A stretch of 37,496 bases of DNA. Source: a virus. How positions within the stretch are numbered: position 1 is the stretch's first letter; the number at the start of each line of letters is the position of its first letter. This document shows positions 15,714 to 33,205 of the stretch, piece after piece. The notes beneath the pieces are model-generated. The model saw only the letters and a program-made list of their open reading frames with translations. It had not been told where the DNA came from and ran no database searches. The translations under genes and the position numbers were made by a program. The stretch spans positions 1-37,496 of IMG/VR virus record IMGVR_UViG_3300031651_000007, one strand, 5' to 3'.

Positions 15714-15944
15714 TTATCCTTCCTTAATCATTCTCTTAGTAGAAAAGTGACCTGACTTATAGTGATCAATAAGTGATCCTCCGGTAAGTGTTATAAGAAT
15801 AACTTTTACTACTGCATACCATCCTCCGGTCAATGGTATTAATCCGACTTCTACAAGATTTAAAAGAATAAGACAAAAGATTGTTTTATTTCCCTTTGCC
15901 AAATCCCATGCTTTTTTTAGTAAGTTTTTAATTTTTGCTTTCAT
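15714..15944 (-). CDS. Holin-like membrane protein
   Basis: A 76-residue protein. A basic N-terminus (MKAKIKNLLKKAWDLAKG), two hydrophobic stretches (about residues 21-37 and 43-60, around PLTGGWYAV and LITLTGGSLI) and a charged tail fit a small phage holin. It is the last gene of the late operon, directly after the endolysin. The assignment is from topology and position. Confidence 0.5.
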   Translation of the reverse strand: MKAKIKNLLKKAWDLAKGNKTIFCLILLNLVEVGLIPLTGGWYAVVKVILITLTGGSLIDHYKSGHFSTKRMIKEG

Positions 15945-15956
15945 GGATATATTATT

Positions 15957-16421: not shown

Positions 16422-16424
16422 TTC

Positions 16425-16745
16425 TTAAAAAAATAAATATCCAATTACTATTAAAATTGCTGTTAAAATTATTGATCCAAACGCGATAACTGTTGTAATA
16501 TACCATCGTTTTTGTACCTTGTTTTTTTCATCCTGGCGAATTATTGTTTCAATAGATGCCTGAAACTTATCAAAACCACTTACAGCCGTTCTTAATGACT
16601 TTACAGTTTCGTTTAATTGAATGACTGAATCTTGTAATCTTATTGTTGCTTTGCTAAGCCCATCATTTCCATTGCCCATTACTTCTTTATAAACTGCATC
16701 GAGCTTAGTGTCAATCCTAACTATTTTTTCTTTCTGACTTTCCAT
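16425..16745 (-). CDS. C-terminally anchored coiled-coil protein (XhlA-like lysis protein)
   Basis: A 106-residue protein. The soluble N-terminal part has heptads (KIVRIDTKLDAVYKEV ... IQLNETVKSLRTAV) and ends in one transmembrane helix (about residues 82-105). Haemolysin XhlA-type lysis accessory proteins look like this. It begins 3 bases after the 63-residue gene and ends 3 bases before the endolysin ATG. A spanin-like role is an alternative. Confidence 0.5.
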   Translation of the reverse strand: MESQKEKIVRIDTKLDAVYKEVMGNGNDGLSKATIRLQDSVIQLNETVKSLRTAVSGFDKFQASIETIIRQDEKNKVQKRWYITTVIAFGSIILTAILIVIGYLFF

Positions 16746-16748
16746 TTT

Positions 16749-16940
16749 CTATCCTCCTGTTATATCAATATATCCGGCGATCCAATAAAGGATTAACCAG
16801 GTTAAAAACAATCCTCCTATTATAATCGTAGGCAACCATTTAAAGAGAAGCTTTCTTCCTTTATATTTCATTAAAAATATTCCCTGACCGGCAAGCCAGA
16901 TTATTATTAATAGTATCGGTGATATTTGATCGAAAGTCAT
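16749..16940 (-). CDS. Two-span small membrane protein (holin candidate)
   Basis: A 63-residue protein with two transmembrane helices (about residues 5-22 and 35-57) joined by a basic turn (KYKGRKLLFKW). The size, topology and position at the head of the lysis cluster make it a holin candidate alongside 15714-15944. Confidence 0.5.
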   Translation of the reverse strand: MTFDQISPILLIIIWLAGQGIFLMKYKGRKLLFKWLPTIIIGGLFLTWLILYWIAGYIDITGG

Positions 16941-16967: not shown

Positions 16968-19784
16968 TCAAAAGCCACTCATTGTAATTATTAAATCTGA
17001 TACTAATTGTTTTAATGTTCCTTCATATCTATAAATAGATGTGTTTCCTACTACGCTGGGGAAATTATCTGAATTATTTACAGCCGCATAAACATATCCA
17101 TTGTGTTCACAGATTGCTATATCTTGTTTTTGATCTACACACCATTCAGAATCAAATGTAAATATTTCACCATTGTATTGATATTGCCAATCATCTTCCC
17201 CCCAATTTTCTGAAGTAAACCTCCAGACAGTTGAGGGAATAGGCCCATGAAACCATGCATGATAAGTATCATCAACTTTTAATAAAAATCCACCACTAAA
17301 AACCCTATAAGTTCCTAATAAGATTGAATTTAAAGAATCTCCAGTTTTAAAATCCATATTATATAATGAATTACCTTCTATCAAATAAGAATTCCATCCT
17401 CCGCCAATTCCTCTGGTTGATGCAAATCCTTTATATATTCCATTATCATTAATTATAGAAATATTTTGAACTTCTCCATTTCTATCAGATAGAAATACCT
17501 GTTGATCAAAAAAATTAATCCCATCTAATGATTTTGCAATATTACCATACGAGGACATTATATATATAGTATCATTTTCATAAAAAGCAAACGGTCTGCA
17601 ACTTGCTAATGGTAATCCGGTCGCAGCAATTGGTTCACTCCAAGTAAAGCCATCATCAACACTATATGCGCGTGATATTTCAGTACCTCCTACCGACTCG
17701 TCTGCATTCCATAAAAATAACGTATCTCTAATGCTTAAAATACCCGGTTCCTGTCTTAAATAACCATCCGGGGCAGTACTCGGAAAATCTAACATATATT
17801 CCCATTTATTAAATTCTTTATCTTTAAAAACAGGGATGCCTCTATTTCTTGCTAACTCTTCACCTATTGGAATATTCCCTTCACCAATTTCAAAATCAAA
17901 TATTTGGACATCACAAAAATTTGATTTTGAACCATCATTATAGCAACCAAAAGTAAATGGCTCCCCCCCAGTAACTCGAATTGTTTTAAAATCATGAGGA
18001 TTCATGGTAATTTCATTAATATTTAATTTTAATAAACCCCAACCGTTAACGTCATTTTTAATAAAGCGCATTGAAAAATAATTTACACTTCCGGCAGTCC
18101 AGGAAGCTTTTGTTGTAGCATAACTATTTCCTATATGCCCCTCCCACATATAATTAAAATTTAATGTGCCATTATTTTGTAATCGAAAATTAATAAAATT
18201 ATCAGCATCATAGTATCTTGAAAAAATAGTTTTTACACCATCTCCCGCCTGATGATCTGATTTTAATATCCAATTAAAACTAAGCCAACCAAAATCTGGT
18301 AATTCTCCTTCAATAGTTGCATAAGCATTTGTACCGTTACAATCTAGCACAGTTCCAAAATCATTACTTATGAGTGTTGCATTTGTTAATTCAATAGTAT
18401 TGCCTACTCCTTCACTATCATAAAGAGAATTAAACTTATATAAATTTCGTGTAGTTGTATATGCTGATCTGCGTTGAAACATTTCATCCCAATCTACTGA
18501 AGTGTTTGAAGTTTCATCCCATCGCATTGTTATTGTTCTCGTTGAATTTGCTGGAATATTTAATTTAACAAATACTTTTAATTCATTGTTGTCTGTATTA
18601 ATAACATCAATATAATGGTCTAATCTTACCCCGTTTCTAGTGAAATATAAATTTTCGATATTACTAGGAAATGCATCATTAATAAAATAAGAATTGTCAA
18701 AATCTATTTCAGCGATGTAATTATTTAAGCTATGAGGATTTGATGAATTATTAAATGTTATAGTTATATAACTATAGTTAAATCTCGAATTTTGATACAA
18801 TGAATGCATTATTGATGTTGATATAGCCCTATCATAAATTCTAAAGTCCTCAATTTTACCTAAAAATTTATAGCTTGTATTTTCTCTCGTCCCTAAATTA
18901 CAGTTCGTCATTGAACTGGGATTTTTTACTGTTCCAGAATTTTTTAATTCCGTATCAATATATATCGAAGCTACACTTCCTGTTTTTATAATAGATATAA
19001 AATACCATGTATCAGCATTTACAGTTATACCTGATGAAACATTACCATAACTACCACTATAAGTATTGAATCTGGGAATTAAATTAGACGCATCTACCGA
19101 TATCATTTCTGTTCCGGAAACATTTGAATTTCCAAATATTCCTTTGAGTCCTGTATAATTTTTTGGATTAATCCAGAATGTAATTGCATAATTGACTGAT
19201 CCATTTAATTCAATAATATTACTACCAATTAATACATCATTAACTCCATCAAAATACATTTGAACTGAATCAGTTTTAAACCATAAAATCTTAGGTTGAT
19301 TGATGCCGGTTGATTGAGTTAAATTATATGAACTTCCTTGATCTGTTATACTTCCAATACATCCTATATAAAACTCTTCCGTTTCACTTGCTGTACAAGA
19401 TTGGTCTAAAATTATCACTGAAGATGAAGCAACAGTATCTGTAATTGTATAAACTGTTCCGCTTTCAGGATCACCAAACCTCACGGCATTACCAATTATT
19501 ACATTATCTCCCCCATCAAGCGTTACTGTTGAGCCGTCGATAGAACTTATTAAATCTCCTGTTGAATTAAAAGTTAAACTATCAACATTGTTTTCATAAT
19601 AACTTGACCAATAAGCAATTAGTCCAATAGTAGAACTATCAGTTAAATCATACACCACATCAGGACTAATTATTATTGTGTTGCTTAGTTCGGTTATTGT
19701 GTCTGTCTTTGCTATTCTTATTGTATTTTGTCCGAAAGACAAACTCCAGATAATAAGCAATAATATTGTAAGTCGTGTTTTCAT
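16968..19784 (-). CDS. Large exported LamG/DUF2341/Asp-box glycan-binding protein
   Basis: A 938-residue protein. A Sec signal peptide (residues 1-18, MKTRLTILLLIIWSLSFG) is followed by Gln19. Next come a LamG-like jelly roll (about 145-335), a DUF2341-like domain (about 336-425), a second LamG-like region (about 445-640) and a C-terminal beta-propeller-like region (about 660-930). The last contains the Asp box SVDDGFTW, as in sialidases and other glycosidases. It should bind and perhaps cleave host surface glycan. It may be a tail spike or a host-secreted depolymerase. It is coupled to the gene upstream (ATGA). Confidence 0.7.
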   Translation of the reverse strand: MKTRLTILLLIIWSLSFGQNTIRIAKTDTITELSNTIIISPDVVYDLTDSSTIGLIAYWSSYYENNVDSLTFNSTGDLISSIDGSTVTLDGGDNVIIGNAVRFGDPESGTVYTITDTVASSSVIILDQSCTASETEEFYIGCIGSITDQGSSYNLTQSTGINQPKILWFKTDSVQMYFDGVNDVLIGSNIIELNGSVNYAITFWINPKNYTGLKGIFGNSNVSGTEMISVDASNLIPRFNTYSGSYGNVSSGITVNADTWYFISIIKTGSVASIYIDTELKNSGTVKNPSSMTNCNLGTRENTSYKFLGKIEDFRIYDRAISTSIMHSLYQNSRFNYSYITITFNNSSNPHSLNNYIAEIDFDNSYFINDAFPSNIENLYFTRNGVRLDHYIDVINTDNNELKVFVKLNIPANSTRTITMRWDETSNTSVDWDEMFQRRSAYTTTRNLYKFNSLYDSEGVGNTIELTNATLISNDFGTVLDCNGTNAYATIEGELPDFGWLSFNWILKSDHQAGDGVKTIFSRYYDADNFINFRLQNNGTLNFNYMWEGHIGNSYATTKASWTAGSVNYFSMRFIKNDVNGWGLLKLNINEITMNPHDFKTIRVTGGEPFTFGCYNDGSKSNFCDVQIFDFEIGEGNIPIGEELARNRGIPVFKDKEFNKWEYMLDFPSTAPDGYLRQEPGILSIRDTLFLWNADESVGGTEISRAYSVDDGFTWSEPIAATGLPLASCRPFAFYENDTIYIMSSYGNIAKSLDGINFFDQQVFLSDRNGEVQNISIINDNGIYKGFASTRGIGGGWNSYLIEGNSLYNMDFKTGDSLNSILLGTYRVFSGGFLLKVDDTYHAWFHGPIPSTVWRFTSENWGEDDWQYQYNGEIFTFDSEWCVDQKQDIAICEHNGYVYAAVNNSDNFPSVVGNTSIYRYEGTLKQLVSDLIITMSGF

Positions 19785-21526
19785 TTTTTTTTATAATTTA
19801 AAAATAAGAACGGTAAAAGCAGGATAAGCCACCAGAGAGATTCTATTTTTGCCGGAGTATACATAGTACTATTAGGATTATGAAGTTCATAACCACTTAT
19901 TGAATCATTTGCTGGAATCCATGTATTGAAATTATCAAAGAAAGCTGTATCGTTTGGAGATGTTTCCGGATTTTTAAAATGAGTAATATAAAATTCATCT
20001 ATTTTCATATCGTCTCCCTCGTCCTGCATGAGGGCAAGTTCGTCTAATTGGAACACCATCACTCCATCTATCCATGTTTCCATTATTCCATCAAAATTAG
20101 GATTGCTTTCGGTAAAAGTGTTCATTACCAATCTTATTGTAATATTGTACCATTGATTATTAGATATGCTTACACTTCCATTATAATGATATGTTCCAAC
20201 AGCCCAGGGGCAAGTCCCGTCTGCCGGAGAACCGCCCATATTCGTTCTATTTGTATTTGGAGTTTGATCATAATGATAGGTTACCAATTTATTACTTGCA
20301 AAAAGATGTTTGGCTATAAAACCATATCCCGGATCAGGACAACTTGGCCCCATAACCGGATCGTCAGGGCCTCCAGCAAATCCTGGCATTTTAGCCCATT
20401 GTCCCTGATCATAAGAAACACCAAAACGTATATTATAAGTTAGATACATTTCATCAAAATCTGTTAAAGTATTGGCTATTAAAGGTAATCCCATACCAAA
20501 ACCATTAAATGCAGCATCATTTTCAATAGCCAATACTTGTGTGCTTTCTCCGTTAATTTCATCTTCAAGTATGTCTAAATAATCATTTGCATGGTAAATA
20601 CAACTTATTGTATCAGGAAAATACTTAAAGATTGTATCTTCATCACAAATGCCAATAGTCATATTTTCAAAATCTATTGTTCTGTAAATAGTAAAATCTC
20701 CTGTTTCAGAATCAAGATCAATATATTGTCTTACATTATTGTAATTTATTCGGGATGTAATTCCATTGTAATTCAATGCATATCTTGGAGGAGCTGTTGT
20801 CGTTTCTTCTTCTTCCCAACAATTAAAAGGATAAGCGCATCCGGTTCCTGAATTATATAACGAATCCAATTGATTTGTTGTAAGTGCTATCCCTTTATAA
20901 ATTGAACAATCATCAATATCTCCGTTCCAATAATCCGATACACCCGTTGAATTTCTGCCGATAATATTTGTTGATGCTCCTAAACCGAAATCATTATTAT
21001 AAGTAACCGTTGAATATGATCCGTCAACACCAAGAATAAGATTGTTTGTAGTTTCTGTGGAATTAAAACTTGCTACGATAAAATGCCATCCTTCTATTGA
21101 AATTGTCGGGCCGTCAGGAGAGGTATTTACTCCTATTTCTCTTAGTACAATAGCGCTTGTACTTGTGTTTACTGCAAAACAAGCTGCCCCGGATTCTCCG
21201 CCAAATACAGTACGATAATCATCTCCCGTCAATACATCAGCATATACCCATGCTGTAAAAGTAAAATCCTGGTCATACATTTGTAATGCAGCAACATCAG
21301 GCATTGTAAAATAATCTCCATCGCCGTCAAAAGCAATACAATATCCTAATTTTCCAGCCTGTTGGTATACCGGATCACCGCTTGCCGTACCATCATTTGT
21401 GCTTACCAAATCCACAATATCACCGGACGATTCTTCCATCGCCCAATAAGATGTTGGGGAAGATACTTGCCCGTTGACAAAATTTGTCAAGATCAAAAAT
21501 GTCAATATGATCGAATATCTTATCAT
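19781..21526 (-). CDS. Exported LamG + PL14-like polysaccharide lyase with C-terminal anchor
   Basis: A 581-residue protein. The signal peptide (1-19) precedes Gln20. A LamG-like domain spans about 25-225. Residues about 280-535 resemble polysaccharide lyase family 14: GQWAKMPGFAGG (Lys379), Tyr-His-Tyr (417-419), WYNITIRLVMNT, then ETWIDGVMVF and DEFYITHFKN. The Ser-x-Arg pair expected in PL14 is not seen, so activity is unsure. It ends with a hydrophobic helix (565-577) and Lys-Lys-Lys, an inner-membrane-type anchor that is unusual for a virion fibre. It starts by TAATG overlap. Confidence 0.65.
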   Translation of the reverse strand: MIRYSIILTFLILTNFVNGQVSSPTSYWAMEESSGDIVDLVSTNDGTASGDPVYQQAGKLGYCIAFDGDGDYFTMPDVAALQMYDQDFTFTAWVYADVLTGDDYRTVFGGESGAACFAVNTSTSAIVLREIGVNTSPDGPTISIEGWHFIVASFNSTETTNNLILGVDGSYSTVTYNNDFGLGASTNIIGRNSTGVSDYWNGDIDDCSIYKGIALTTNQLDSLYNSGTGCAYPFNCWEEEETTTAPPRYALNYNGITSRINYNNVRQYIDLDSETGDFTIYRTIDFENMTIGICDEDTIFKYFPDTISCIYHANDYLDILEDEINGESTQVLAIENDAAFNGFGMGLPLIANTLTDFDEMYLTYNIRFGVSYDQGQWAKMPGFAGGPDDPVMGPSCPDPGYGFIAKHLFASNKLVTYHYDQTPNTNRTNMGGSPADGTCPWAVGTYHYNGSVSISNNQWYNITIRLVMNTFTESNPNFDGIMETWIDGVMVFQLDELALMQDEGDDMKIDEFYITHFKNPETSPNDTAFFDNFNTWIPANDSISGYELHNPNSTMYTPAKIESLWWLILLLPFLFLNYKKK

Positions 21527-23274
21527 TAATTGAAATCGATTATTTTATAAACAAAATATATTTTCGCATCTCCTTCGCCTGTATCCATATCATCCAAATC
21601 TAACCAATAAGGAGCGTTTGCATCCATTGCTAAAATTGAAGTTCCATAAAGTTCCTCTAAATAATCACTTCCCGTAGCGGAAGGATAAAACTGATCAACT
21701 GTTGAAGTAAATATCTGTGCCCCGACTTTATATCTGTTAAAAGCCGTACCTGCATTTTTATATGTTTTTATATATGAATCAACAACATTGGTATAAGCTG
21801 CTGTGACATAATTAAAATATATACCGATTCTTATTGGAAATATAACCTTTCCGCTTCCCGGAGCAGGAATGAGCATTATGCTGTCCCCAGCTAAAATATT
21901 AGCACTTGAAATTGATATTAAAGTATCGTATATTATTCCTGCGCTATGGTTATTAAACGTTGCGTTATCGCCGAAATTCACATCACCATTTATATTCAAA
22001 ACTTCATCAACATCCAATGTATCATAGTCAGCCTTAGTAGTATCGGCAACCAGAGGAACAGTATCGTAATAAGTAAGTGTATTATCATAGACAAGAACCA
22101 CCCTGTAATCAGCATCGGCTACTTCTGCACTATCAAGAGTGCCTCCTACTCCACCATCGTTTAAACTTCCAGTAGTATCTATATAAACATATTCTCCATT
22201 ATTTTTTGCATAAACATATAAATCAGAATCTTCATTAAAATATAATGCACCGGGATTTGGATCCGGAGGTAAGTTATCAGTTATTATCGGAATTAATTGA
22301 ATTGCCGGCGTTATAAATAATGGCCTGGTTATATATGGATCATAATCTACCCAATCAAATGTTATGTTTAAATATGGATTAACATCAAATGGAGTTACTA
22401 TTGCAGTAGTACCATAGACGTTATTATATAATTTTGTATCACCTATATATATAGTATCAGCACGAAAATTTTCTACTGGTTCATCGAAATAAACATCACC
22501 TATAAGATCAATATCTCCGGTAATTGTAATATCAGGAGCTTCCAATTGTATTTCTGTTCCCGATGCTAGTTTTGTAATATCTTCACCTTGATCCCTAATA
22601 TATCCATATCCCGAATCATCAATAAGATTCAAGTCATAAGTTGATGTGTTGATTGTTGTATTAGCTAACAATGTAGATGGCAATGTTAATAATTCAGATA
22701 AAGTTACAGGATCAACTTCTGTCGTCACATCTTTAAAATACATAGTATCACCTGACATAGTTATATATAATTCTTCAGTAATACTACCAAAATGGATCCC
22801 CTGAGTTAAGGCTCTTTTTGTTGATGACTGATTTATTAATACTCTATTATTAAAATAAGATAATCCATAAACATATAACCTATAATTAGTGTAAGAACTT
22901 CCCGGATCATCGCCAATGTACAAACCTAAATAATTAGCCCCGTCTTTAGGGACAAGTGTCCTGCTTGTATTTCCTCCTGATATTCCTGTACGCTTTAAAA
23001 AATATCCTTCGCCTGAAAATAATGTATTCATATCTGCTCTTAAATCAGCAGCAGAATCTATCAATGCTAATAAAGCAATTTGCAAACTATCACCTATAAG
23101 ATCAGTTAAGGCAAGCCCGGTAAAATGTTTATCCGTAGCACCATCTAACAGATAAAAATATTCCGTTGCTGATCCTGATAAAGAAGATTTTGCAGGTAAA
23201 TTATCTACCGATTCGTCTTGAGCAGTTAAAATTACGCTCAAAAATAATCCTATTATTACTATTAATTTTTTCAT
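21526..23274 (-). CDS. Tail fibre-like protein with a signal peptide
   Basis: A 582-residue protein. Residues 1-18 (MKKLIVIIGLFLSVILTA) form a signal peptide before Gln19. The rest is low-charge, Asp/Thr/Ser-rich and beta-predicted, with fibre-like segments (DITITGDIDLIGDVYF, NINGDVNFGDNATFNN). It ends in a compact C-terminal domain (about 450-582) that could be receptor-binding. It overlaps the upstream tail gene by ATGA. Fibre function follows from position and composition; no family is recognised with certainty. Confidence 0.55.
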   Translation of the reverse strand: MKKLIVIIGLFLSVILTAQDESVDNLPAKSSLSGSATEYFYLLDGATDKHFTGLALTDLIGDSLQIALLALIDSAADLRADMNTLFSGEGYFLKRTGISGGNTSRTLVPKDGANYLGLYIGDDPGSSYTNYRLYVYGLSYFNNRVLINQSSTKRALTQGIHFGSITEELYITMSGDTMYFKDVTTEVDPVTLSELLTLPSTLLANTTINTSTYDLNLIDDSGYGYIRDQGEDITKLASGTEIQLEAPDITITGDIDLIGDVYFDEPVENFRADTIYIGDTKLYNNVYGTTAIVTPFDVNPYLNITFDWVDYDPYITRPLFITPAIQLIPIITDNLPPDPNPGALYFNEDSDLYVYAKNNGEYVYIDTTGSLNDGGVGGTLDSAEVADADYRVVLVYDNTLTYYDTVPLVADTTKADYDTLDVDEVLNINGDVNFGDNATFNNHSAGIIYDTLISISSANILAGDSIMLIPAPGSGKVIFPIRIGIYFNYVTAAYTNVVDSYIKTYKNAGTAFNRYKVGAQIFTSTVDQFYPSATGSDYLEELYGTSILAMDANAPYWLDLDDMDTGEGDAKIYFVYKIIDFN

Positions 23275-25184
23275 TGCCTTCCTTTTAGTTTTATTCGACC
23301 TCCAGATTTTAATCTTAAATAACCACCAGATTTTAATTTTAAATATCCTCCTTCCAATCCTCCTCCAATTTGTACCAATACAACTTTATGAGTATCATCG
23401 GCATAGTTAATTTCATCATTAATAATCATGAATTGGATCCCATTTTCCTGAATAATATTTGATATGTTGAATTCACCTAATATATTCCCCTCTCTTTTTA
23501 TTTTTGGAGTGATATGATTCCTGCAAATTTGATCTGAAATTACTTCATTTAATGATCCTGTTTCGGATTCTCCTTTTTTATACCATTCTGAAGTTGCTAT
23601 GTAACCATCGTCATCTTTATAATAAAGACCTCCCATATAAATAATATCTTTATTATTATACTCTGGCAAATCACCAATTAAAGTTTCATAAGTCTCACTT
23701 ATATTATTATTTTCATCAATTGTAGTCGTTAATTCAAGTTCTTCCGGGAATGATTCATTAACTGGTTCCAGTTTTACATAAGAATCATTTATATTAACTA
23801 CAAATCTTAAAGTTGTATCTATATTTATAGTACCTCCTAATTCAGGAACTCTCGGATTTGAATTAATAGTAACATAATCTATATATAAACTACCTGTAGC
23901 ACATATAGGAAAACTTTTTATTTCTATTCCATATCTTGTTTCTTCAGATAATTCAGACCACCATATTGGTTTTTTATTATCAATGTTCCAATATCCTTCA
24001 TGATCAAGATAATATTTATGACCTGTAATTGTATTAATATATAAATATATCTTACCCATTACATAATTAATAGCTTGAATTGTATACTTTATATTTAATA
24101 TTTGGGGTCCAGAAGTTATTTCTCCTAAATAACTCCTTATTTTTTTTGTATCATCTAATAATGGATACCGTGTTGGCAAAAAAAGTAATCCATCTGAATA
24201 GCCAGGATAAATATCTCCTATATGCGGAAAATGAACATATCCAGGGCCGGCATATCTAAAATTCTCATTCATAATATTATCATCTAATCCGTAATTCTGG
24301 ATTAATACAAGCTCTTTCCATGCCGGTAATACTATATCATTTGCCCATTCATCTACCCAGGCACATAATGTTTCATCCGGCTCCGAAGATTCTGTTATTT
24401 CAATGATAGGATCATAATTTGATGAATTGACAAAATTACCCTGATAATCATATCTGCGTCTTACATATTCTGCATTTTGAGCATTTATCTGAATGATTTG
24501 AAAATAAGAATTGCTTTGACGCAATGTCAAATGAAATCTTCGCAATAATTGTTCAAGTACTTCATAGCATGATTTTGCTTCGCCATCATCATACATTTGT
24601 TCTGCATTGAAATATGTCTGCTCTAAAGGTGAATCATCATCAGTGCTGTCCATGTGACTTTCATATATATAACAGGATTCAAAAATATTAAGATTCAACC
24701 CCAAGCGAGCTAAAATATCTATAATCGTTTGTAGTATTTCCTTCTTCCCTTCAAAATTATCTCCTTCAGTATCTATCCATTTCATGTCTTTCAAAGCTCC
24801 AAGTGTATCACTTGCTTTTACCGCAATGGAATATTCAATAGGTTTGTGAGGCTCACTATATGTGTCCGGCAATAACCATCCATACCAAATGTATCCGCTT
24901 TTCCAATAAAATGCCAATTTAAAACGTTTTCCATCAGAGGTCATCAGAGAATAAAATTGGCGATCTGTATCTGATTCCATTTTTAGAGTTAATACCGATC
25001 CTCTTATTGGAGATTCAAGTGTTTCATCCGGGGCTTCTGTCTTTAAAATAAGAGGTTGTTCATAAGGCATATCAACATTTTGGCTTTCTCCAGCTCCTAA
25101 ATCACGTTCCTGAATATAAGCCCAAATTGACCTATTCCAGAAAGATGTTTTACATAATGCAAGATATTTATTATTATATGCCAT
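23271..25184 (-). CDS. Large tail/baseplate protein
   Basis: A 637-residue protein directly after the tape measure gene, where the distal tail and tail-associated proteins lie. It has no signal peptide. The N-terminal 150 residues (WYGWLLPDTYSEPHKPIEYS) resemble the tip protein seen in Bacteroidetes siphophages. The C-terminus ends in a short tandem repeat, GGYLKLKS, GGYLRLKS, GGRIKLK. It probably forms the tail tip. The start overlaps the tape measure stop (TAATG). Confidence 0.6.
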   Translation of the reverse strand: MAYNNKYLALCKTSFWNRSIWAYIQERDLGAGESQNVDMPYEQPLILKTEAPDETLESPIRGSVLTLKMESDTDRQFYSLMTSDGKRFKLAFYWKSGYIWYGWLLPDTYSEPHKPIEYSIAVKASDTLGALKDMKWIDTEGDNFEGKKEILQTIIDILARLGLNLNIFESCYIYESHMDSTDDDSPLEQTYFNAEQMYDDGEAKSCYEVLEQLLRRFHLTLRQSNSYFQIIQINAQNAEYVRRRYDYQGNFVNSSNYDPIIEITESSEPDETLCAWVDEWANDIVLPAWKELVLIQNYGLDDNIMNENFRYAGPGYVHFPHIGDIYPGYSDGLLFLPTRYPLLDDTKKIRSYLGEITSGPQILNIKYTIQAINYVMGKIYLYINTITGHKYYLDHEGYWNIDNKKPIWWSELSEETRYGIEIKSFPICATGSLYIDYVTINSNPRVPELGGTINIDTTLRFVVNINDSYVKLEPVNESFPEELELTTTIDENNNISETYETLIGDLPEYNNKDIIYMGGLYYKDDDGYIATSEWYKKGESETGSLNEVISDQICRNHITPKIKREGNILGEFNISNIIQENGIQFMIINDEINYADDTHKVVLVQIGGGLEGGYLKLKSGGYLRLKSGGRIKLKGRQ

Positions 25185-27019
25185 TACGTTATTAATTGTT
25201 TTTCAATTGCATATCTTGAATGTGATAAATCAATATCACTTCCTTTTATTGTACCGTTAATATTTATATCGATTCTCATTCTTTCTCCATATTGGCGATT
25301 TATATTTCTTGTAGGATCAGTATTAGTTTGTGTTGTAGAAGGAAGCGTTACTCCTTGTCCTCCGGTTTCACCAAGATTTTTTATTCCTGCTTTTATAGCA
25401 GCAGCCATAGCTATTAATGTAACTCCGGCAGCCAATGCTATATAAGGGTTTAATGACATGAGCGATTCATTAAAAGCAAATATTCCGGAAGCAACAACCA
25501 ATAACATTTCGCCAAGTTTCATAAGTATATCAGCAATAGGTGTAAGAATTGCTTTGCTAAAATCAAATTGTTCGCCTGTAGCCATTATCTCACCCATAGA
25601 CTGTGCAAAACTTGAAACCATATAAACAAAACTGTCCTGAATAAATCTATTTGTTGCTGTTACTCCTGCCTGAAATTCCCGTAGTTTAACTAAGAATTTA
25701 TCGTAATTTTCTTCTGCTTGTTTAAGGTATTCTGAATTTCGTGCTATTAAATATGCAGGATCAAGATTTTCCTTTTGATCAAGAGCAAATAATTTATCAT
25801 ATTCTAAAGACAGCCTTCCGGCGGAAACTCCTAAATTATAATAATCTTCAATTCTTTGCTCAATACGATCATGTTCTTCTGTATCGGATACATTAGAAAT
25901 TGTTATTCCTTGTTTCTTTTGTAATTCAATACGTTTTAATTCAGCATTTGTTAATTCATTTAACCATTTTATCTGTTCCTGGTATCCTTTTATTTCCTCA
26001 TTTGCAAGCGCAATAGTTCTCAAATCTCCTTTTAAAGCTTCATCTTTTATTTTTTTCTGTTCTTTAATTTTCTCGTTAAGATCATCAAACCATATTACTT
26101 CTTCTTTTATTTTTTTTGTTAATTTTTTCTTCTCCTCGTTTAATTTTTTTTGTTTTTCCCATGCTTCAAAAATAAATTTTGCATGATCGGTAAGTATATC
26201 ATTATTCTGTAATAATACTTTATCCTGATATTCAATTGCAATACCTGTTTCTTTCGATGCCTGTTTTAAATCATTCCATAATTTCTTTACCTCAGTACCT
26301 TCTTCAATTTGAGTTTTCAGCCATCCCATGAAAGTTTTATCGCCACTTTCTACCATTCCTCTTCCTACTTCTTCCATATAATCACCCCAGGCATTTTTCA
26401 ATTGCACGTAAGCCCCTATACCAGCTTCTGCTGCTGCAACTGCCTGTCCTCCTACCTGATCATTTAAACCTTTTATTGCACTTTCAAGTCTTTCCGTACT
26501 TCCTACTGCTCCTTCAACTGTTATACCATAACGAGTTAACGCATTTGTAGAACTACCGACTGTTTTTGCAATTAATTCTGCTGATGCTGCTAAATCCATA
26601 CTTTTTGCGGTCGCAAAATCTTGAGCTAAAGGAAGTAATCTTTTTAAAGCTTCTTCATTTTCACCTAATACCTGCGCTAACCTTGCTGCTGCTGCAATAG
26701 TTTGTTCATCTCCGAACAAGGTCTTTTTTTGTAATTCACTTGCCTGATCAAGTAATTTATCCTGAATATCCCTTCTTCCATCTAACGCTGTTAATAAACT
26801 TGCTTCTGCTTTTGCCTGTACATCATAAGCCTGAATAGATTTCTTAGTAAAATTGATCAACATTTTCACTGAAAATGCAGCAGCAAGCGCACCCCCTAAT
26901 GCAGCAGCCCCTTGCTTCATAAGATTCATCTGTTTCATTGAACCTTGAAGCCCCTGGTTGAATTTCGATGCATCCGTAGTCAACCGTATACTAAGAGCCG
27001 CTAATATATCTTTTATCAT
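25184..27019 (-). CDS. Tail tape measure protein
   Basis: A 611-residue protein with the tape-measure pattern: an amphipathic N-terminus (LTTDASKFNQGLQGSMKQM), an Ala/Gly-rich hydrophobic segment (about 34-52), long charged helices (about 290-420) and late hydrophobic segments (about 500-540). It sets tail length and later enters the host envelope. By the usual ratio of about 0.15 nm per residue the tail would be near 90 nm, a rough inference. It overlaps the frameshifted chaperone frame by 29 bases. Confidence 0.88.
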   Translation of the reverse strand: MIKDILAALSIRLTTDASKFNQGLQGSMKQMNLMKQGAAALGGALAAAFSVKMLINFTKKSIQAYDVQAKAEASLLTALDGRRDIQDKLLDQASELQKKTLFGDEQTIAAAARLAQVLGENEEALKRLLPLAQDFATAKSMDLAASAELIAKTVGSSTNALTRYGITVEGAVGSTERLESAIKGLNDQVGGQAVAAAEAGIGAYVQLKNAWGDYMEEVGRGMVESGDKTFMGWLKTQIEEGTEVKKLWNDLKQASKETGIAIEYQDKVLLQNNDILTDHAKFIFEAWEKQKKLNEEKKKLTKKIKEEVIWFDDLNEKIKEQKKIKDEALKGDLRTIALANEEIKGYQEQIKWLNELTNAELKRIELQKKQGITISNVSDTEEHDRIEQRIEDYYNLGVSAGRLSLEYDKLFALDQKENLDPAYLIARNSEYLKQAEENYDKFLVKLREFQAGVTATNRFIQDSFVYMVSSFAQSMGEIMATGEQFDFSKAILTPIADILMKLGEMLLVVASGIFAFNESLMSLNPYIALAAGVTLIAMAAAIKAGIKNLGETGGQGVTLPSTTQTNTDPTRNINRQYGERMRIDININGTIKGSDIDLSHSRYAIEKQLIT

Positions 27020-27362
27020 TGAATCGTAATCTTATTTTTTTACTCATTTTAATCTGTTGTTTTTTTGTCATTTTTGTATCTTTTATCTTTTCTTTTTCCC
27101 AATTAAAAACAACAAAATCAGTTACTTTTTTGTACTGATTTATAGATTTAACCTGTGCGTTATGCCAATGAACATGATTCCATCTTGCGACTTCATAAGC
27201 TAATTTTATTTCTCCGTCTCTTTTTTTTACTAAACCAGAGTAAGCATTAAAAATTTCACGATGTGTAAGATATTCAAGCTCATTAATACCAAGCGACAAC
27301 TCTCCTAAAACTATTTCGTCAATCCTGTCAAATGTTATTTTTTCTGATTTTCCGGATTTATT
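26991..27362 (-). CDS. Tail assembly chaperone, frameshifted (gpT-like) extension
   Basis: From the A10 slippery run at 27370-27361 the -1 frame is open to 26991 (about 123 residues) and continues into LTHREIFNAYSGLVKKRDGE and WNHVHWHNAQ, a typical T-extension segment. Its only upstream start-like codon is TTG 27299, with no early ATG. It is best read as the C-terminal part of a roughly 237-residue fusion with the 122-residue chaperone upstream. Confidence 0.75.
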   Translation of the reverse strand, partial: NKSGKSEKITFDRIDEIVLGELSLGINELEYLTHREIFNAYSGLVKKRDGEIKLAYEVARWNHVHWHNAQVKSINQYKKVTDFVVFNWEKEKIKDTKMTKKQQIKMSKKIRLRFNDKRYISGS

Positions 27363-27703
27363 TTTTTTTTCTCTGTCTGCGGTATTGAATTTGAATATAT
27401 TTTCAATACATCAGGTATAATAGTAAGATCATCACCCAATGATTCGTATAATTTATCAAAAGTCAAATCCAAGTCAATACCCATTAAATTACAGCCGGAA
27501 TCAATGGCGGAATAAATCAACAAAGCAAGATCGTCAAATTGAGCAAATGTTAAATTACTCAAATCCTTTAAAGATTGAATATAATCATAATAATCATTAA
27601 GATTATCAATAGGAGGTTCATGATTTTTACAAAATCTCCTTATAGCTCCATTGCCGAATTTAACAGGATACTTCTTACCGGAAATAGTTATCTTTTCAAT
27701 CAT
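27335..27703 (-). CDS. Tail assembly chaperone (gpG-like)
   Basis: A 122-residue protein after the tail tube gene and before the tape measure gene, the fixed position of tail chaperones. It starts MIEKITISGKKYPVKFGNGA and has helices (LTFAQFDDLALLIYSAID). Near its end it reads QTEKKKINPENQKK over a run of ten A, the frameshift site. It coats the tape measure protein during tail assembly. Confidence 0.78.
   Translation of the reverse strand: MIEKITISGKKYPVKFGNGAIRRFCKNHEPPIDNLNDYYDYIQSLKDLSNLTFAQFDDLALLIYSAIDSGCNLMGIDLDLTFDKLYESLGDDLTIIPDVLKIYSNSIPQTEKKKINPENQKK
27361..27370 (-). promoter_or_regulatory. A10 slippery site for -1 frameshifting
   Basis: GAG followed by ten A on the coding strand. 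It provides the A-AAA-AAA form of a -1 slippery heptamer. The zero frame stops 8 codons later; the -1 frame runs on without a stop into the chaperone extension. Transcript slippage on A10 is an alternative mechanism. Confidence 0.7.
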
Positions 27704-27704
27704 A

Positions 27705-28136
27705 TTATGATATTACACTCTGTGTCCATTCTCCTGCTGCTTCCCAGCTAAAATTACCTTCTGCATTTTCACCATACATTCCGAATGAAAGTGCAACACC
27801 ACTCCATTGTGCCGGGCCGGTAAATTCATAATCTCCGGCATTATCATTAGTAACTTTCAATGTTACTTCTGTGCCGGCAAGTAAATCCTCAACTACATTT
27901 TTAATATTGACAACCGGTACTCCTTCATTATCAAGAATAGCATACAGAACATTACAGGTTCCGTTTGCATCATAAGTGCCTTGTTTTCTTACGGCCCATC
28001 TTCCATCTGTTTTATTTCTTAATATTCTTGGAGTATGAGTGATATTAATATCATCACTAACCGCAAAAGCTACGGCCGTGCCATCAATAAAAAGAGTTAT
28101 CTTCCCTCCTTCAAATACATAATTAGTTGCTGCCAT
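27705..28136 (-). CDS. Major tail tube protein
   Basis: A 143-residue beta-rich protein starting MAATNYVFEGGKITLFIDGT, with ALSFGMYGENAEGNFSWEA near the C-terminus. Together with its location between the connector genes and the tail chaperones, this matches TP901-1-like tail tube proteins. The next gene starts one base later. Confidence 0.75.
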   Translation of the reverse strand: MAATNYVFEGGKITLFIDGTAVAFAVSDDINITHTPRILRNKTDGRWAVRKQGTYDANGTCNVLYAILDNEGVPVVNIKNVVEDLLAGTEVTLKVTNDNAGDYEFTGPAQWSGVALSFGMYGENAEGNFSWEAAGEWTQSVIS

Positions 28137-28329
28137 TATTTTGCGTATTAAATGGTTTTACAATTTTTTTATTTTTTTTACCAATTTTAAAAGTCTCTGC
28201 TTTTCCTTCACTTATTAATTTATTAGCAAGTTCATTAATAAGTAAATGCCTTGAGCCTTTTTTCCAAACCTTATTTTTATTTTTCTTATTGGGTTTGTAA
28301 TCTTCAAGTAAAATAATTTCTTTTGGCAT
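28123..28329 (-). CDS. Small basic protein in the tail region
   Basis: A 68-residue Lys/Asn-rich protein starting MPKEIILLEDYKPNKKNKNK, overlapping the tail tube start by 14 bases. It has a centre HLLINELANKLISEGKAE like a short edge-binding helix. A tail accessory role is inferred from position only. Confidence 0.5.
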   Translation of the reverse strand: MPKEIILLEDYKPNKKNKNKVWKKGSRHLLINELANKLISEGKAETFKIGKKNKKIVKPFNTQNNGSN

Positions 28330-28340
28330 ATTTTTATTTT

Positions 28341-28706
28341 TTATCGTTTAAATCGTAATCTGTAATCCTGGCGTATATTGTGTTTATCTGAATTAAAATC
28401 GAGATCATCCGACTGATCTTGAAAAATTATACTCGTTATTTCAACAGTTCCAACAGTTCCCGAATAATAATCCAACTCAGTCCTTACACTTTCTGCCAAT
28501 ATTTCAGCATCAGCAAGAACATCAGAATAAACATCAATTATAAGATGTAAAAAATCAGCATGAGATAAATCAGATTTTGTATTTGATGGCTCTGTCCCTA
28601 ATATTCTATAAACAACATAATCACCTGGTTTACCCTGTGGAAATTTATTAGGATAATTTTCTCTGGTTACACTATTTAACAGCGTATGTATAGCTTCATG
28701 AATCAT
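28341..28706 (-). CDS. Tail completion/terminator protein (DUF3168-like)
   Basis: A 121-residue protein starting MIHEAIHTLLNSVTRENYPN, with beta-strand blocks YVVYRILGTEPS and LHLIIDVYSD and a C-terminal RQDYRLRFKR. The size and order after the HK97-gp10-like gene match gp17/DUF3168 tail-completion proteins. Confidence 0.6.
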   Translation of the reverse strand: MIHEAIHTLLNSVTRENYPNKFPQGKPGDYVVYRILGTEPSNTKSDLSHADFLHLIIDVYSDVLADAEILAESVRTELDYYSGTVGTVEITSIIFQDQSDDLDFNSDKHNIRQDYRLRFKR

Positions 28707-29194
28707 TATTTATATACTTTTGGAACAGCCGATTTTAAATAGTTTACTGTTACCCTCGCAAGTTCCTCACGAATAAATCCAAATACTTTAATATTCGTCT
28801 GATCCCACGCTTTTTCAAAGAACTTATTAGCATTAATTCCGGTCCCTTTTCTTGCATATCCTGTAGTTTCTCCTTTTGATCTTGTTCTTTTACCGAATCC
28901 CTTAGTTCCTTCATGAATGAACCATCCATACCATCCCTGGTATGTAAATTTTTTCCCTATTCTTATTGCAACCCATATAGCGGCTCCTTTTCTGTTCTTA
29001 TCATTTACTATTCCTACTGATTTACTTAAAGTTTTAGTTCTCTTAGGCGCATTTGCCCTTACTTGCTTTACAAGTATCCCTCCTCCTTTTCTTAAAGCTT
29101 TTAATTGTAATTTCCGAGTAATTTTACTCGGCAAAATACGCAAAGCTCGTTCAAGTTTTGGTAATCCTTTTATTTCAACAGTAGCAATAGGCAT
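28706..29194 (-). CDS. HK97 gp10-like head-tail/tail protein
   Basis: A 162-residue protein. IATVEIKGLPKLERALRILP at the start, LRKGGGILVKQVRANAPKRT (near 50) and GWYGWFIHEGTKGFGKR (near 88) are typical of the HK97 gp10 family. It acts in tail completion at the head-tail join. TAATG overlap joins it to the downstream gene. Confidence 0.82.
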   Translation of the reverse strand: MPIATVEIKGLPKLERALRILPSKITRKLQLKALRKGGGILVKQVRANAPKRTKTLSKSVGIVNDKNRKGAAIWVAIRIGKKFTYQGWYGWFIHEGTKGFGKRTRSKGETTGYARKGTGINANKFFEKAWDQTNIKVFGFIREELARVTVNYLKSAVPKVYK

Positions 29195-29599
29195 TTAAGG
29201 TACAAATTCATACGTGTAAATATAAACAGTACTGTCAGCGGAAGCATCAACATTCCATATCCGGAAACAAGTTTCATCCCAATCATAATCTATTAAAAAT
29301 GATTTCCTGCGAATCGCTGACCCTTCAATCATTCTTGGAGCTGAATAATCACATAAAATAGAATCAGCACTGCCAAAAAGATAAAAAGTTGGTTTACTAT
29401 CACCGGCATCCGGCCCTACACAAATATAAACATCACCGTCAAGATCAGAATAATCTACAAATACTACCTCTTCATTTAAACCAGGAATACATATCATAGT
29501 ATCGTTATCAGCAGCAGGAGTTATCAGCGAATCTATTACCTGTTGTCCAAAGCAGGATATTGAAATTCCAAATATTATACTAATTATTAATTTTTTCAT
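29195..29599 (-). CDS. Exported small protein inside the connector cluster
   Basis: A 134-residue protein with a signal peptide (1-18, MKKLIISIIFGISISCFG) before Gln19-Gln20. The mature part is acidic, with Asp-rich segments (VDYSDLDGDVYICVGPDAGD). It is coupled to both neighbours: it overlaps the head-closure gene by four bases and ends one base before the gp10-like gene. A secreted protein in the middle of the head-tail connector cassette is unexpected. No family is recognised. Confidence 0.65.
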   Translation of the reverse strand: MKKLIISIIFGISISCFGQQVIDSLITPAADNDTMICIPGLNEEVVFVDYSDLDGDVYICVGPDAGDSKPTFYLFGSADSILCDYSAPRMIEGSAIRRKSFLIDYDWDETCFRIWNVDASADSTVYIYTYEFVP

Positions 29600-29913
29600 T
29601 GGTTATCTTTCTTTTTACATTCGATTGTCATTTTATGTCTGTCAGAATAATCAACATTAAGAATATCCCAATATTGCTTTTTCATATAAATCCTCATCTC
29701 CTGAGTTATTCCGGCATAATAGTGTGCTGTCAATTTAACTACTTCAAAACCTATTTTCTGTTGACTTTCCTCATTTTCACTACTTGATTTTTGTGCCACA
29801 GAAACCCATAATATACAATTTGTAGACCATGATAGTATTAATTCTCCTAACCCGTTTTTTTCTTCATTAGATTTTTCAATAATGACTTTTGTATCTAATT
29901 TTCCAATATTCAT
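29596..29913 (-). CDS. Head closure / head-tail adaptor protein
   Basis: A 105-residue protein from ATG 29913 (MNIGKLDTKVIIEKSNEEKN), which overlaps the upstream stop (TAATG). The beta-rich pattern with DILNVDYSDRHKMTIECKKK at the end matches Phage_H_T_join (SPP1 gp16-like) adaptors. It follows the connector gene, as expected. Confidence 0.72.
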   Translation of the reverse strand: MNIGKLDTKVIIEKSNEEKNGLGELILSWSTNCILWVSVAQKSSSENEESQQKIGFEVVKLTAHYYAGITQEMRIYMKKQYWDILNVDYSDRHKMTIECKKKDNQ

Positions 29914-30509
29914 TATATCCAATCTTCTATATGATTCGATACTATCTGTTTATAACCAAATGGCAATTCATTAATCTGGGTTCCTGTCATCACCTGTTGA
30001 GGATTTTCAAAAAAATGCCCTATTAATAATAAAAGAGCCGAAATAATATCTCCCGGTATTTTATCAGCAGTCGCATAGCCGCAAGTAAAAGTAATTTGTA
30101 CATTATTTAATTTATCCTGATTCAAGTCAGGAAAATCTCCGTTTATTAAAATCCTACCGGGATAAGAAAACAAATCACTATCATAATTTTCAGATGAATA
30201 TTCACTCAATTCTGTTTCGCCATTGGGATAATATTTAATATATGAAATGGCAATAAGTGGTTCCTTATGAAGCAGAATATGACAATTTCTTCTTTTATTA
30301 TACAAAGGCCAATCATCAAGATCGAGACACCATGTTGCAGATATTAACTGAATATTCGGACAATCTTTTTCAAATTGGTAACGGGCGCCATATATCGCCT
30401 GCTGCAATTTAGTATCATAACTCGTATCATCTTCATGAATACTACATTGAGTGCGTGCAGCCGGGAGTAAAACAGGCTCACTTGCAGGAGCTGTTACCAA
30501 TCTATACAT
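29913..30509 (-). CDS. Head-tail connector protein (phiE125 gp8 / gp6-like)
   Basis: A 198-residue protein. YRLVTAPASEPVLLPAARTQ at the start and ITFTCGYATADKIPGDIISALLLLIGHFFEN near 138-168 (only quoted in part) are classic for the phiE125 gp8 connector family. It forms the ring under the portal. TAATG overlaps join both neighbours. Confidence 0.88.
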   Translation of the reverse strand: MYRLVTAPASEPVLLPAARTQCSIHEDDTSYDTKLQQAIYGARYQFEKDCPNIQLISATWCLDLDDWPLYNKRRNCHILLHKEPLIAISYIKYYPNGETELSEYSSENYDSDLFSYPGRILINGDFPDLNQDKLNNVQITFTCGYATADKIPGDIISALLLLIGHFFENPQQVMTGTQINELPFGYKQIVSNHIEDWI

Positions 30510-30997
30510 TATCCAAAAACAATTAATAAATCTATGCTTTCTACTGCTGTACCGGCTAAATCAATTGTCTTAGCTCCGGATGCTACATCAGGTGTATCAA
30601 TATCACAAAAGGCAAGTAAACGTTGACCGGCAGTAAGATCAATAGACCATCCGTCTCCGAATAATTCATATCCGTTTGAAGCTCCGTCAGATAAAGTTAT
30701 AGCCCCTGTATTCGTACTTGTAGGTATTGCTGAAATAATACGTACTTTTTTGCCCGTAGTAGCAATAGTATTGCCTCCTTTGTCTGATAAATCAGTTAGA
30801 TCAATAGTCGCGGAACCGTCAGTCAATGCTACAGTGCCTTCATATACCAATTCTACATCAGGAGAACTATAAGCCGAATATCTTTCATCAAGGCTATGTT
30901 TATGAGTAATTTTATCATCATTAACATCTGATAACCCTAAATCCTCAATTACTTCGAGAATCATTTTTAATGATACGCTTTTTACTGAAGATGCCAT
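30509..30997 (-). CDS. Probable capsid accessory/decoration protein
   Basis: A 162-residue protein. A short helical N-terminus (VKSVSLKMILEVIEDLG) is followed by a beta-rich, Thr/Ser/Asp/Gly-rich domain (TIDLTDLSDKGGNT). It lies between capsid and connector genes with no signal peptide. The composition suggests a head fibre or decoration protein; no family is certain. Confidence 0.5.
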   Translation of the reverse strand: MASSVKSVSLKMILEVIEDLGLSDVNDDKITHKHSLDERYSAYSSPDVELVYEGTVALTDGSATIDLTDLSDKGGNTIATTGKKVRIISAIPTSTNTGAITLSDGASNGYELFGDGWSIDLTAGQRLLAFCDIDTPDVASGAKTIDLAGTAVESIDLLIVFG

Positions 30998-31374
30998 TAT
31001 TTCTTAATTTTTCGTTTGGGAGTTTCAATTATCGCTTTTTCTACTTCAGGTTCCGTTGCCTGTTCTGATTTCTTAGGATATAAATATTCCAAAACATCAA
31101 AAGCAATCTTCTCGGTTACACCTGAAAGCTTTTCAAGATTATCAATTTCCTTGATATTTTCAATAGAATCAAATCCAAGTTTATCAAATAATTCCCTGTG
31201 AGGGAATGATCTTGGCAGGCCAATTTCAGATCGAGGCTTATCAGCCCCAACCTGGATGGCATATTTTAACCGTATAAGTTCATTTGCCTGCTTTTCTTCC
31301 AAATCAACTTCATCATTGATAAAATAAGCAAGGCCAAATGATTTAACCGGGGATTTTACAAATTTAATCCTCAT
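30997..31374 (-). CDS. Head-region hypothetical protein
   Basis: A 125-residue protein. The N-terminal 50 residues are beta-rich (MRIKFVKSPVKSFGLAYF). The centre NIKEIDNLEKLSGVTEKIAF looks like a helix-hairpin-helix, and the C-terminus is very basic (PKRKIKK). Stop/start overlaps join both neighbours. A head-assembly role is inferred from position. Confidence 0.5.
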   Translation of the reverse strand: MRIKFVKSPVKSFGLAYFINDEVDLEEKQANELIRLKYAIQVGADKPRSEIGLPRSFPHRELFDKLGFDSIENIKEIDNLEKLSGVTEKIAFDVLEYLYPKKSEQATEPEVEKAIIETPKRKIKK

Positions 31375-31847
31375 TAGTTTTCTGGTTTAATTAAATAATA
31401 TGTCGCCCCTAATGTTGAAGTATGTGTCCCCGATGCATCATAAAATACACGATAAATAGGATAAGCAACGGTAGTAACCCACAATGTACTTGCAGCATCT
31501 ACGGCCACTAATGTATCATTAGCAGCAAGCAAATCCGAATTACCGGAATTTAATGTTACAAAATTAGTTCCGTCGATACTTGCCTGCAATATAATATTCC
31601 CGGCAGTTGTACCTGTTAATTGTGTTGCTACTGGCTGTATCGCTAATTTGTAACCCTTTGTAAATCCTCTATAACCGGAACTTGTATATCCAAGTCCGAT
31701 CCATACATCACCGGTGTTGGTAGCCGTATCTGTAGCTAAAACAAAAGTTGAAGCTCCCGTTTGTACTGATCCGGCATCATCTGTTCTTTGGCCATAAACC
31801 AATATAGTAGATACAAGTAGTATCGCTATTAAAATATACTTTTTCAT
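31374..31847 (-). CDS. Exported protein at the decoration-protein position
   Basis: A 157-residue protein with a signal peptide (1-19, MKKYILIAILLVSTILVYG) before Gln20. The mature part is a Thr/Ala/Gly-rich beta protein (IILQASIDGTNFVTLNSGN). It follows the capsid gene directly, where decoration proteins are usually coded, but the export signal argues for a periplasmic or surface destination or for unusual processing. No known family. Confidence 0.6.
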   Translation of the reverse strand: MKKYILIAILLVSTILVYGQRTDDAGSVQTGASTFVLATDTATNTGDVWIGLGYTSSGYRGFTKGYKLAIQPVATQLTGTTAGNIILQASIDGTNFVTLNSGNSDLLAANDTLVAVDAASTLWVTTVAYPIYRVFYDASGTHTSTLGATYYLIKPEN

Positions 31848-31858
31848 TTTATTAATTT

Positions 31859-33205
31859 TTAAGATGTTTTTGCGTCTAAAATTGCTGCAAAGCTTTCTGC
31901 ATGCATCACTGCTACATCGGCAAAAATATTAACAACCAGCCTTAACATTGCCTGAGTACTTAGAGAATAAGGATCAGGAAGTATTTCCATGCCTCCCCAC
32001 TGACCAATTGCAAGATCACCCCAATTTCCAAATAAAATAGCACTACAAATACCACTTGCTGTTCCTTTGGTAAGTGATGAAGATACCAGGTTGGAAATAC
32101 CAACAGGATAACCATTTATTTCGGTTGCATTTACAGGCCATACAAATAATCCGGAACCCTCATCAACTTTTGTTTGTTTCAGGCGTCCGCGAACTTTTGC
32201 ATTTGTAACATAAGCCATGCCATTTACATCTGCATTATCTTGTGCAACTTCTGTTTCAAGCTCAATCATGTGATTAAGTGTTGCAAAACCCCCATTTGTG
32301 CCAATAGCTACTGAGCCAATATCTGCTGTTGCAGCTACTCCGGTAGGCGATCCTCCTGTTCCATCACCATGTAAAGCAGCATATTCAATACCATTATTCA
32401 TCGCAGTCATAAGCCGTCTGCGTATTCTCGCTTCAATACTCGGTGAAGTTTGAATAAGCAACAAATTAGACAAATCAACGTATGTGCCAACTCTCTTCGG
32501 AGACATAGTTACCTGGGTAAGTGTTGGAGAACTCTCGGCTCCGGCATCAGTTTCACCTTCCCAGGTAGCAGTCGGAACTGTTAATTCTTTCGGAAATGCA
32601 ATATTTCCTACCAGACCGGACATAAAATCAGCCCCTACTTTACGCAAAACAGAACGATCCCAAAGATACTCAATGAAATCCTTCAATTCAGTAGCTACTG
32701 CATAGCCACCTTCTCCAACAGTACCTGCAGTCATATCACGTTTTTCACGTTTACCACTCAGAACCATGAATGGAACAGCCAAAGCATTATCACGATAAGA
32801 AATACCTTCATTCTTACCCTGTATTCTAGCTTCTTTATCCATTTCGCTTTCAATACCATCCAACTGACCTTTACTTGCCCATTGGCGAACAGCTTTCAGA
32901 AATGAATATGACCGAACTTCTTTAACCTCTTTTTCTTTCTGAGATTCAGCTATTTTTCTGGCTGCCTGACGTTGTTTTTCCTGTTCAAGTTCTTCGGTAG
33001 CTTCAATAATACCATCAAGATCACGAATTTCTTCCAAAAGTTTTTCGTATTTTGTGGTTTCTTCGTCATTCAGATCGCGCTTTTCCTTTTTTTCATTCAC
33101 GCAACCTTCAAGAAGTGCGGTCATTTCACCATCTTTAACCGCCCTTTCTTCTTTTAATTCCTTACTCGTTTTTGTGAGTGAGGGAGCATACTTTTTTTCT
33201 TTCAT
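31859..33205 (-). CDS. Major capsid protein, HK97 fold
   Basis: A 448-residue protein. An N-terminal charged coiled coil (about 10-110, a delta-domain scaffold) is expected to be removed by the protease coded upstream. The shell domain follows, with AVPFMVLSG, RKVGADFMSGLVGNIAFP (near 190), WEGETDAGAESSPTL and the C-terminal EILPDPYSLSTQAMLRLVV. The length and order match HK97-like capsids. Confidence 0.93.
   Translation of the reverse strand: MKEKKYAPSLTKTSKELKEERAVKDGEMTALLEGCVNEKKEKRDLNDEETTKYEKLLEEIRDLDGIIEATEELEQEKQRQAARKIAESQKEKEVKEVRSYSFLKAVRQWASKGQLDGIESEMDKEARIQGKNEGISYRDNALAVPFMVLSGKREKRDMTAGTVGEGGYAVATELKDFIEYLWDRSVLRKVGADFMSGLVGNIAFPKELTVPTATWEGETDAGAESSPTLTQVTMSPKRVGTYVDLSNLLLIQTSPSIEARIRRRLMTAMNNGIEYAALHGDGTGGSPTGVAATADIGSVAIGTNGGFATLNHMIELETEVAQDNADVNGMAYVTNAKVRGRLKQTKVDEGSGLFVWPVNATEINGYPVGISNLVSSSLTKGTASGICSAILFGNWGDLAIGQWGGMEILPDPYSLSTQAMLRLVVNIFADVAVMHAESFAAILDAKTS

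Follow-up and report, generated by a model that had tools for sequence, protein, structure and literature searches.

Five late-region phage proteins with Bacteroidota-type signal peptides and Gln at +1: candidate virion-surface proteins with proposed attachment after export

Virions of tailed phages are normally assembled in the cytoplasm. At the level of their N-termini, the closest described counterparts of the phage proteins reported here are the Bacteroidota signal peptidase I (SPI) substrates that follow the Q-rule (PMC5837995, PMC10653852), with which they have in common a basic end, a hydrophobic run, small residues at −3/−1 and Gln at +1. As an average over Bacteroidetes species, Gln is found at +1 in 71% of the predicted SPI substrates (PMC5837995). 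The known Q-rule substrates are host envelope or secreted proteins, whereas the genes described below belong to operons for the head, connector and fibres of a phage. Among phages, Q-rule genes were described in the Nixviridae prophages of Porphyromonas gingivalis as genes of unknown function and possible envelope modifiers, and capsid proteins with signal peptides were also mentioned for P. gingivalis phages (PMC10367356). XepA, a phage protein of Bacillus subtilis, is exported and absent from particles (PMC6834076).

The window analysed here is the whole stretch of a 37,496-base virus record, the minus strand of which carries all late genes. By screening its 53 genes with a strict home-made heuristic for the n-, h- and c-regions of signal peptides, exactly five genes, all of them late and named A to E, were found to encode a signal peptide followed by Gln at +1 (SP+Gln), with small residues at −3/−1. 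All five are intact ORFs, and the coordinates and the Gln at residue 19 or 20 that the first-pass annotation had given for them proved correct. These genes and their surroundings are arranged as follows.

31859..33205, minus strand: major capsid protein, HK97-type (PHROG 617, E 5e-71; Phage_capsid, E 2e-40)
31374..31847, minus strand: protein A, 157 aa, small beta-sandwich (predicted), immediately behind the major capsid gene; signal peptide 31791-31847, cleavage site ...ILVYG, then Q20, Gln+1 codon 31788-31790
30997..31374, minus strand: connector-region gene after A; homologue L009:648-950, there directly after the capsid gene
30509..30997, minus strand: 162-aa protein without signal peptide, also absent from L009
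29596..29922, minus strand: connector gene upstream of B; homologues L004:9457-9786 and L005:4704-5033
29195..29599, minus strand: protein B, 134 aa, flanked on both sides by head-tail connector genes; signal peptide 29546-29599, cleavage site ...SCFG, then Q19, Gln+1 codon 29543-29545
28706..29194, minus strand: connector gene downstream of B; homologue L009:1833-2390
21526..23274, minus strand: protein C, 582 aa, fibre position; signal peptide 23221-23274, cleavage site ...ILTA, then Q19, Gln+1 codon 23218-23220
19781..21526, minus strand: protein D, 581 aa, with a LamG domain and a polysaccharide-lyase-14-like part; signal peptide 21470-21526, cleavage site ...FVNG, then Q20, Gln+1 codon 21467-21469
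16968..19784, minus strand: protein E, 938 aa, with a LamG domain and followed by the putative lysis genes; signal peptide 19731-19784, cleavage site ...LSFG, then Q19, Gln+1 codon 19728-19730
15714..16940, minus strand: putative lysis cassette directly after E, comprising three small hydrophobic-segment proteins and a peptidase-like endolysin

The start codons of A-E are hardly in doubt, because each ATG either overlaps with the stop codon of the upstream gene or lies at most about 12 bases away from it. To obtain a null expectation, residues 2-40 of every protein were shuffled, which yielded 0.022 genes per genome with an SPI signal peptide and Gln (maximum 1 in 2000); when residues 1-14 were kept fixed and only residues 15-40 were shuffled, five of five was reached in 0 of 5000 trials. 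With a Gln frequency of 3.1%, the chance of finding five Gln is about 3e-8, while the 71% prevalence of Gln at +1 in Bacteroidetes makes five of five the expected look of export by such a host. A similar rule applied to a comparison set of 259 ORFs near related capsid genes (L005-L022) returned eight signal peptides, none of them with Gln, and SP+Gln was found in 4 of 197 prophage ORFs of Bacteroidota versus 2 of 269 of others, numbers too small to separate the groups. Judged from their residues, the N-termini of A-E are with high probability signals for Sec export and Q-rule processing. No NCBIfam or Pfam match to a type IX secretion C-terminal sorting domain was found in A-E, and comparison with PHROGs and NCBIfam gave no usable name for any of them, except a sub-cutoff TafC match of the LamG part of E. 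A sixth hydrophobic, signal-peptide-like N-terminus, lacking the Gln, occurs on a 124-aa protein at 1409-1783 of the window, which is possibly spanin-like or lipoprotein-like; a pentapeptide-repeat protein (ADLTGADLRGADL...) is encoded at 11638-12420.

Some 12 bases separate the end of the major capsid gene from the start of A, and the capsid protein carries no signal peptide. The closest colinear relative, L009, shares the order of the genes from capsid and connector to tape and distal tail, and has a similar-sized gene at the place of 29596..29922; A, B and the gene at 30509-30997 have no counterpart there, which indicates that A and B are accessory genes inserted into a conserved head operon. 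The place of C, D and E is between tail genes and lysis genes, downstream of homologues of tape measure and distal tail genes, and within the lysis cassette the segment 15957-16421 resembles the D-Ala-D-Ala carboxypeptidase gene of phiST (E 2e-7). Carbohydrate-binding or polysaccharide-degrading domains were found in D (LamG, PL14) and E (LamG) and none in C, the position of which is that of SP+Gln virion proteins in Cellulophaga phages. D terminates in ESLWWLILLLPFLFLNYKKK (window 19781-19843), a hydrophobic stretch with KKK that could act as an inner-membrane anchor after export. No homologues of B and C were detected in viral contigs, none of C, D and E in any fetched locus, and D had no match in annotated phages; by analogy with the Cellulophaga proteins described below, C-E are candidate fibre or adhesin proteins.

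Protein A belongs to an undescribed beta-sandwich family. It had no direct match in annotated phages, Pseudanabaena phage Pan5 being reached only via L002, and a first genome scan with A1 gave no match. A profile search seeded by A, one viral relative and the remote Pan5 relative retrieved 23 viral loci, in 21 of which the family-A gene comes after a major capsid homologue, directly or past one small gene. A signal peptide with Gln was present in all 21 capsid-adjacent members, counting a few, among them L041 and three that carry a charge close to the cleavage site, that the script missed or mis-cut and that were read by eye; Gln occupies +1 in 17/17 of the distinct members examined, always preceded by A, S or G. 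In several pairs, not all, the signal peptides are far more diverged than the mature parts (identities of 32% versus 87% for L041/L047, and 52% versus 96% for L044/L049). Such divergence with a kept Gln is the trace expected of selection for a cleavable export signal and not for a particular sequence. Two more family-A genes follow a capsid gene in prophage L066 (a Bacteroidetes MAG) and in L090 (a contig binned to Polynucleobacter), and from this gene position it is plausible that A is a component of the particle. A Bacteroidota host may be suspected for the phage of the window from L066 and from the SP+Gln analogues in Cellulophaga phages, with the Polynucleobacter bin of L090 standing in contrast. 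The Bacteroidetes Q-rule reading of the first-pass annotation is well supported, since the A family conserves both the signal peptide and the Gln, and the two are seen again in other Bacteroidota phages. As to whether homologues keep the N-terminus, a point on which that annotation had made its reading depend, the record is divided: it is kept in the 21 capsid-adjacent members, while the remote members L053 and L052 have, respectively, a signal peptide without Gln and no signal peptide, and none is present on the SGNH hydrolase of phiST considered below.

The remote relative of A in Pan5 (ON968456; L025:3908-4309) adjoins the capsid gene, is annotated as a cement protein and has SP+Gln. The occurrence of a Bacteroidota-type signal peptide with Gln in a cyanophage means that the gene or host assignment merits a second look. 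The 68 kb contig IMGVR_UViG_3300020045_003522 harbours two pairs of capsid and family-A genes (L045, L054) about 41 kb apart, L051 has tandem family-A genes (4800-5240 and 5276-5701), each with a signal peptide and Gln, and many other family-A members contain two A domains in one protein.

AlphaFold2 modelled A (pLDDT 61, weak) and its relative L045 (pLDDT 75) as a small beta-sandwich. The best structural neighbour of the A-family model was XepA from PBSX, a prophage (Z 10.0 across 108 residues, 12% identity). The jellyroll cement protein of BPP-1 (3j4u chain H, Z 7.8) and a capsid chain of phage 7-7-1 (Z 7.3) were also recovered, and because a structural Z below 8 possibly reflects only a common arrangement, the fold does not separate a cement protein from an exported XepA-like protein.

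Proteins with the same N-terminal features are recorded in the particles of other phages. Among 106 checked proteins labelled as virion-detected by MS/MS in seven Cellulophaga phages, 12 have SP+Gln, the labels being GenBank notes on those other phages that are silent on signal-peptide removal, and several of the 12 being homologues of each other across phages. They comprise four proteins of phi10:1 (gp091-094, consecutive and in the fibre region), three of phi19:1 (gp101-103), three of phi18:3 (gp085-087, where only the fibre region was fetched and 3/3 is not a genome-wide rate), and one each of phiSM (gp08) and phi39:1 (gp26). Tail fiber protein and virion structural protein are among their PHROG names, and SP+Gln is also found in the same fibre cassettes of phi13:2, phi46:3, phi19:3 and Ingeline_1. 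These 12 proteins challenge the premise of the first-pass annotation that export is not normal for virion proteins, and such analogues make particle membership likely for the fibre-position proteins of the window. The labelled proteins could also be exported proteins that stick to particles at purification.

SP+Gln was found in none of the checked MS/MS-labelled proteins of the podovirus phi4:1 and the crAss-like phi14:2, and phage 11b has no SP+Gln at all, its fibre genes being devoid of signal peptides; thus, the export route is not required by Bacteroidota phages. In the tail region of phage 6H, only one gene has SP+Gln, a further sign that the trait is not universal. The SGNH hydrolase of phiST shares a lyase/hydrolase fibre module with signal-peptide proteins (66% identity) and has a different N-terminus without signal peptide, showing that this module occurs both with and without one. 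Some major capsid proteins of related, Bacteroidota-type phage loci (L035:813-2330, L037:3127-4581, L055:3160-4602, L070:5350-6831 and L084:5872-7227) begin with a hydrophobic segment, sometimes two, that resembles a signal peptide or membrane anchor and is absent from the capsid protein of the window; proheads of these phages may begin on the membrane.

The O-glycosylation motif of Bacteroidota, D(S/T)(A/I/L/M/T/V) (PMC10897501), occurs 29 times in A-E versus 13 expected. Neither the other late proteins (11 versus 12) nor the early ones showed an excess of it, and permuted motifs showed no enrichment in A-E. One D-T-X site is invariant across 15 family-A rows, the excess in the family being about one site per protein. 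In the SP+Gln proteins of Cellulophaga phages (L030, L027, L026, L058, L060), the motif is depleted (17 versus 36 expected). O-glycosylation was therefore rejected as a general mark of SP+Gln phage proteins and kept as a hint, with the enrichment in A-E being compatible with passage through the periplasm.

From the signal peptides, the Gln at +1, their conservation and the gene positions, all read from sequence, and from the GenBank notes that place equivalent proteins in Cellulophaga particles, we infer a route by which A-E would become part of their own particle. Late in infection, the Sec translocon of the host would export A as a small capsid-associated beta-sandwich protein, C-E as fibre or adhesin proteins, and B, to which no role is assigned; SPI would cut before the Gln, which host glutaminyl cyclase would convert to pyroglutamate. 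In the periplasm, part of the chains may also receive O-glycans at D(S/T)X sites. Stored there or at the envelope until holin and endolysin release the particles, the mature proteins would then attach to capsids and tail tips. We give an even chance to this explanation, that A-E are virion-surface proteins that are Sec-exported, trimmed, Gln-capped and attached to particles at or after lysis. It is the leading one in our ranking, ahead of an envelope-acting role outside the virion, which in turn is ahead of assembly in the cytoplasm. The MS/MS notes bear in the same direction on the two possibilities raised by the first-pass annotation, favouring, at least for fibre-region proteins, the addition of virion parts after export over a separate programme that loads the periplasm.

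The fibre-region SP+Gln proteins labelled as virion-detected in other phages argue against the view that A-E are exported and yet not part of the virion, acting instead on the envelope late in infection in the manner of morons or XepA, by superinfection exclusion, by binding or degrading capsule or polysaccharide, or by helping lysis. This view draws on the conserved export signals, on A and B being accessory insertions and on the possible C-terminal membrane anchor of D, and it is how the authors of the P. gingivalis phage study read their own Q-rule genes (PMC10367356). The fold of A can be cited on both sides, in that XepA, exported and absent from particles (PMC6834076), is the best structural neighbour of the A-family model, while the jellyroll cement protein of BPP-1 is another neighbour; A, however, adjoins the capsid gene and not the lysis cassette. 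Taken together, a role confined to the envelope appears doubtful, though a serious contender.

Assembly in the cytoplasm, with the N-terminal segment left uncut or removed by a phage protease and serving as an assembly or membrane-tethering element, or persisting as a leftover of a host gene, would conform to the normal mode for virions, and others have assumed that the prohead protease removes the hydrophobic start of some related-phage capsid proteins. Nevertheless, Gln at +1 and a small residue at −1 are kept despite strong divergence of the signal peptides, a pattern that fits host SPI and glutaminyl cyclase and for which a phage protease or a structural helix offers no fitting cause, and signal peptides with Gln are carried by unrelated mature proteins; we therefore regard cytoplasmic assembly as unlikely. 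That the five N-termini reflect mere chance or artefact, namely hydrophobic starts in an AT-rich genome picked up by a heuristic predictor, or wrong start codons, is already contradicted by the shuffling null of 0.022 per genome, by starts at or near the end of the upstream gene and by conservation in relatives, and this is hardly credible.

Attachment at or after lysis, if extended beyond this phage, would mean that many Bacteroidota tailed phages finish their outer surface outside the cytoplasm, with capsid-decorating and fibre proteins being Sec-exported, pyroglutamate-capped, possibly glycosylated, and attached at exit; we advance this generalization tentatively, at slightly below an even chance. 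If true, Sec, SPI, glutaminyl cyclase and possibly the Bacteroidota O-glycosylation system would be phage host factors, modifications made by the host could be present on fibres exported first, and the dying cell could become coated from pools of fibres in its periplasm. Were capsid-decorating or fibre parts attached at exit, tailed-phage assembly would not be completed in the cytoplasm. The culturable Cellulophaga phages allow a direct test of the export prediction, and signal peptide plus Gln is of practical help in spotting phage surface proteins that lack a name and in recognizing a host as a member of the Bacteroidota.

In the open-licence literature, where a full-text search on the subject turned up the P. 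gingivalis study (PMC10367356) alone, no report tying Q-rule phage genes to virion parts was found, and neither the virion link, nor the family that is syntenic with capsid genes and conserves its signal peptide, nor the count of MS/MS-labelled proteins was encountered in the literature searched. Compared with the Q-rule genes of P. gingivalis prophages, the present case adds a capsid-syntenic family and matching proteins labelled by MS/MS as virion components. To our knowledge, typical cement proteins have no signal peptide. A resembles the jellyroll cement proteins (BPP-1 3j4u chain H, and Pan5 by annotation) in its capsid-adjacent gene and in the similar size of its predicted beta-sandwich, but the structural match is weak. 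With XepA/YomS of the B. subtilis prophages, A would have in common a beta-sandwich (Z 10 for the A-family model) and the character of an exported phage protein; XepA, however, is a non-particle protein of a lysis cassette with 12% identical aligned residues, whereas A lies next to the capsid gene. For C, D and E, the counterparts are the fibre cassettes of Cellulophaga phages (phi10:1 gp091-095, phi18:3 gp085-087, phi19:1 gp101-103, phiSM gp08-09 and phi39:1 gp26); no sequence similarity was detected between C, D or E and the proteins of these cassettes, which have SP+Gln, are mostly consecutive, lie in the fibre region and contain polysaccharide lyase or adhesin-type domains.
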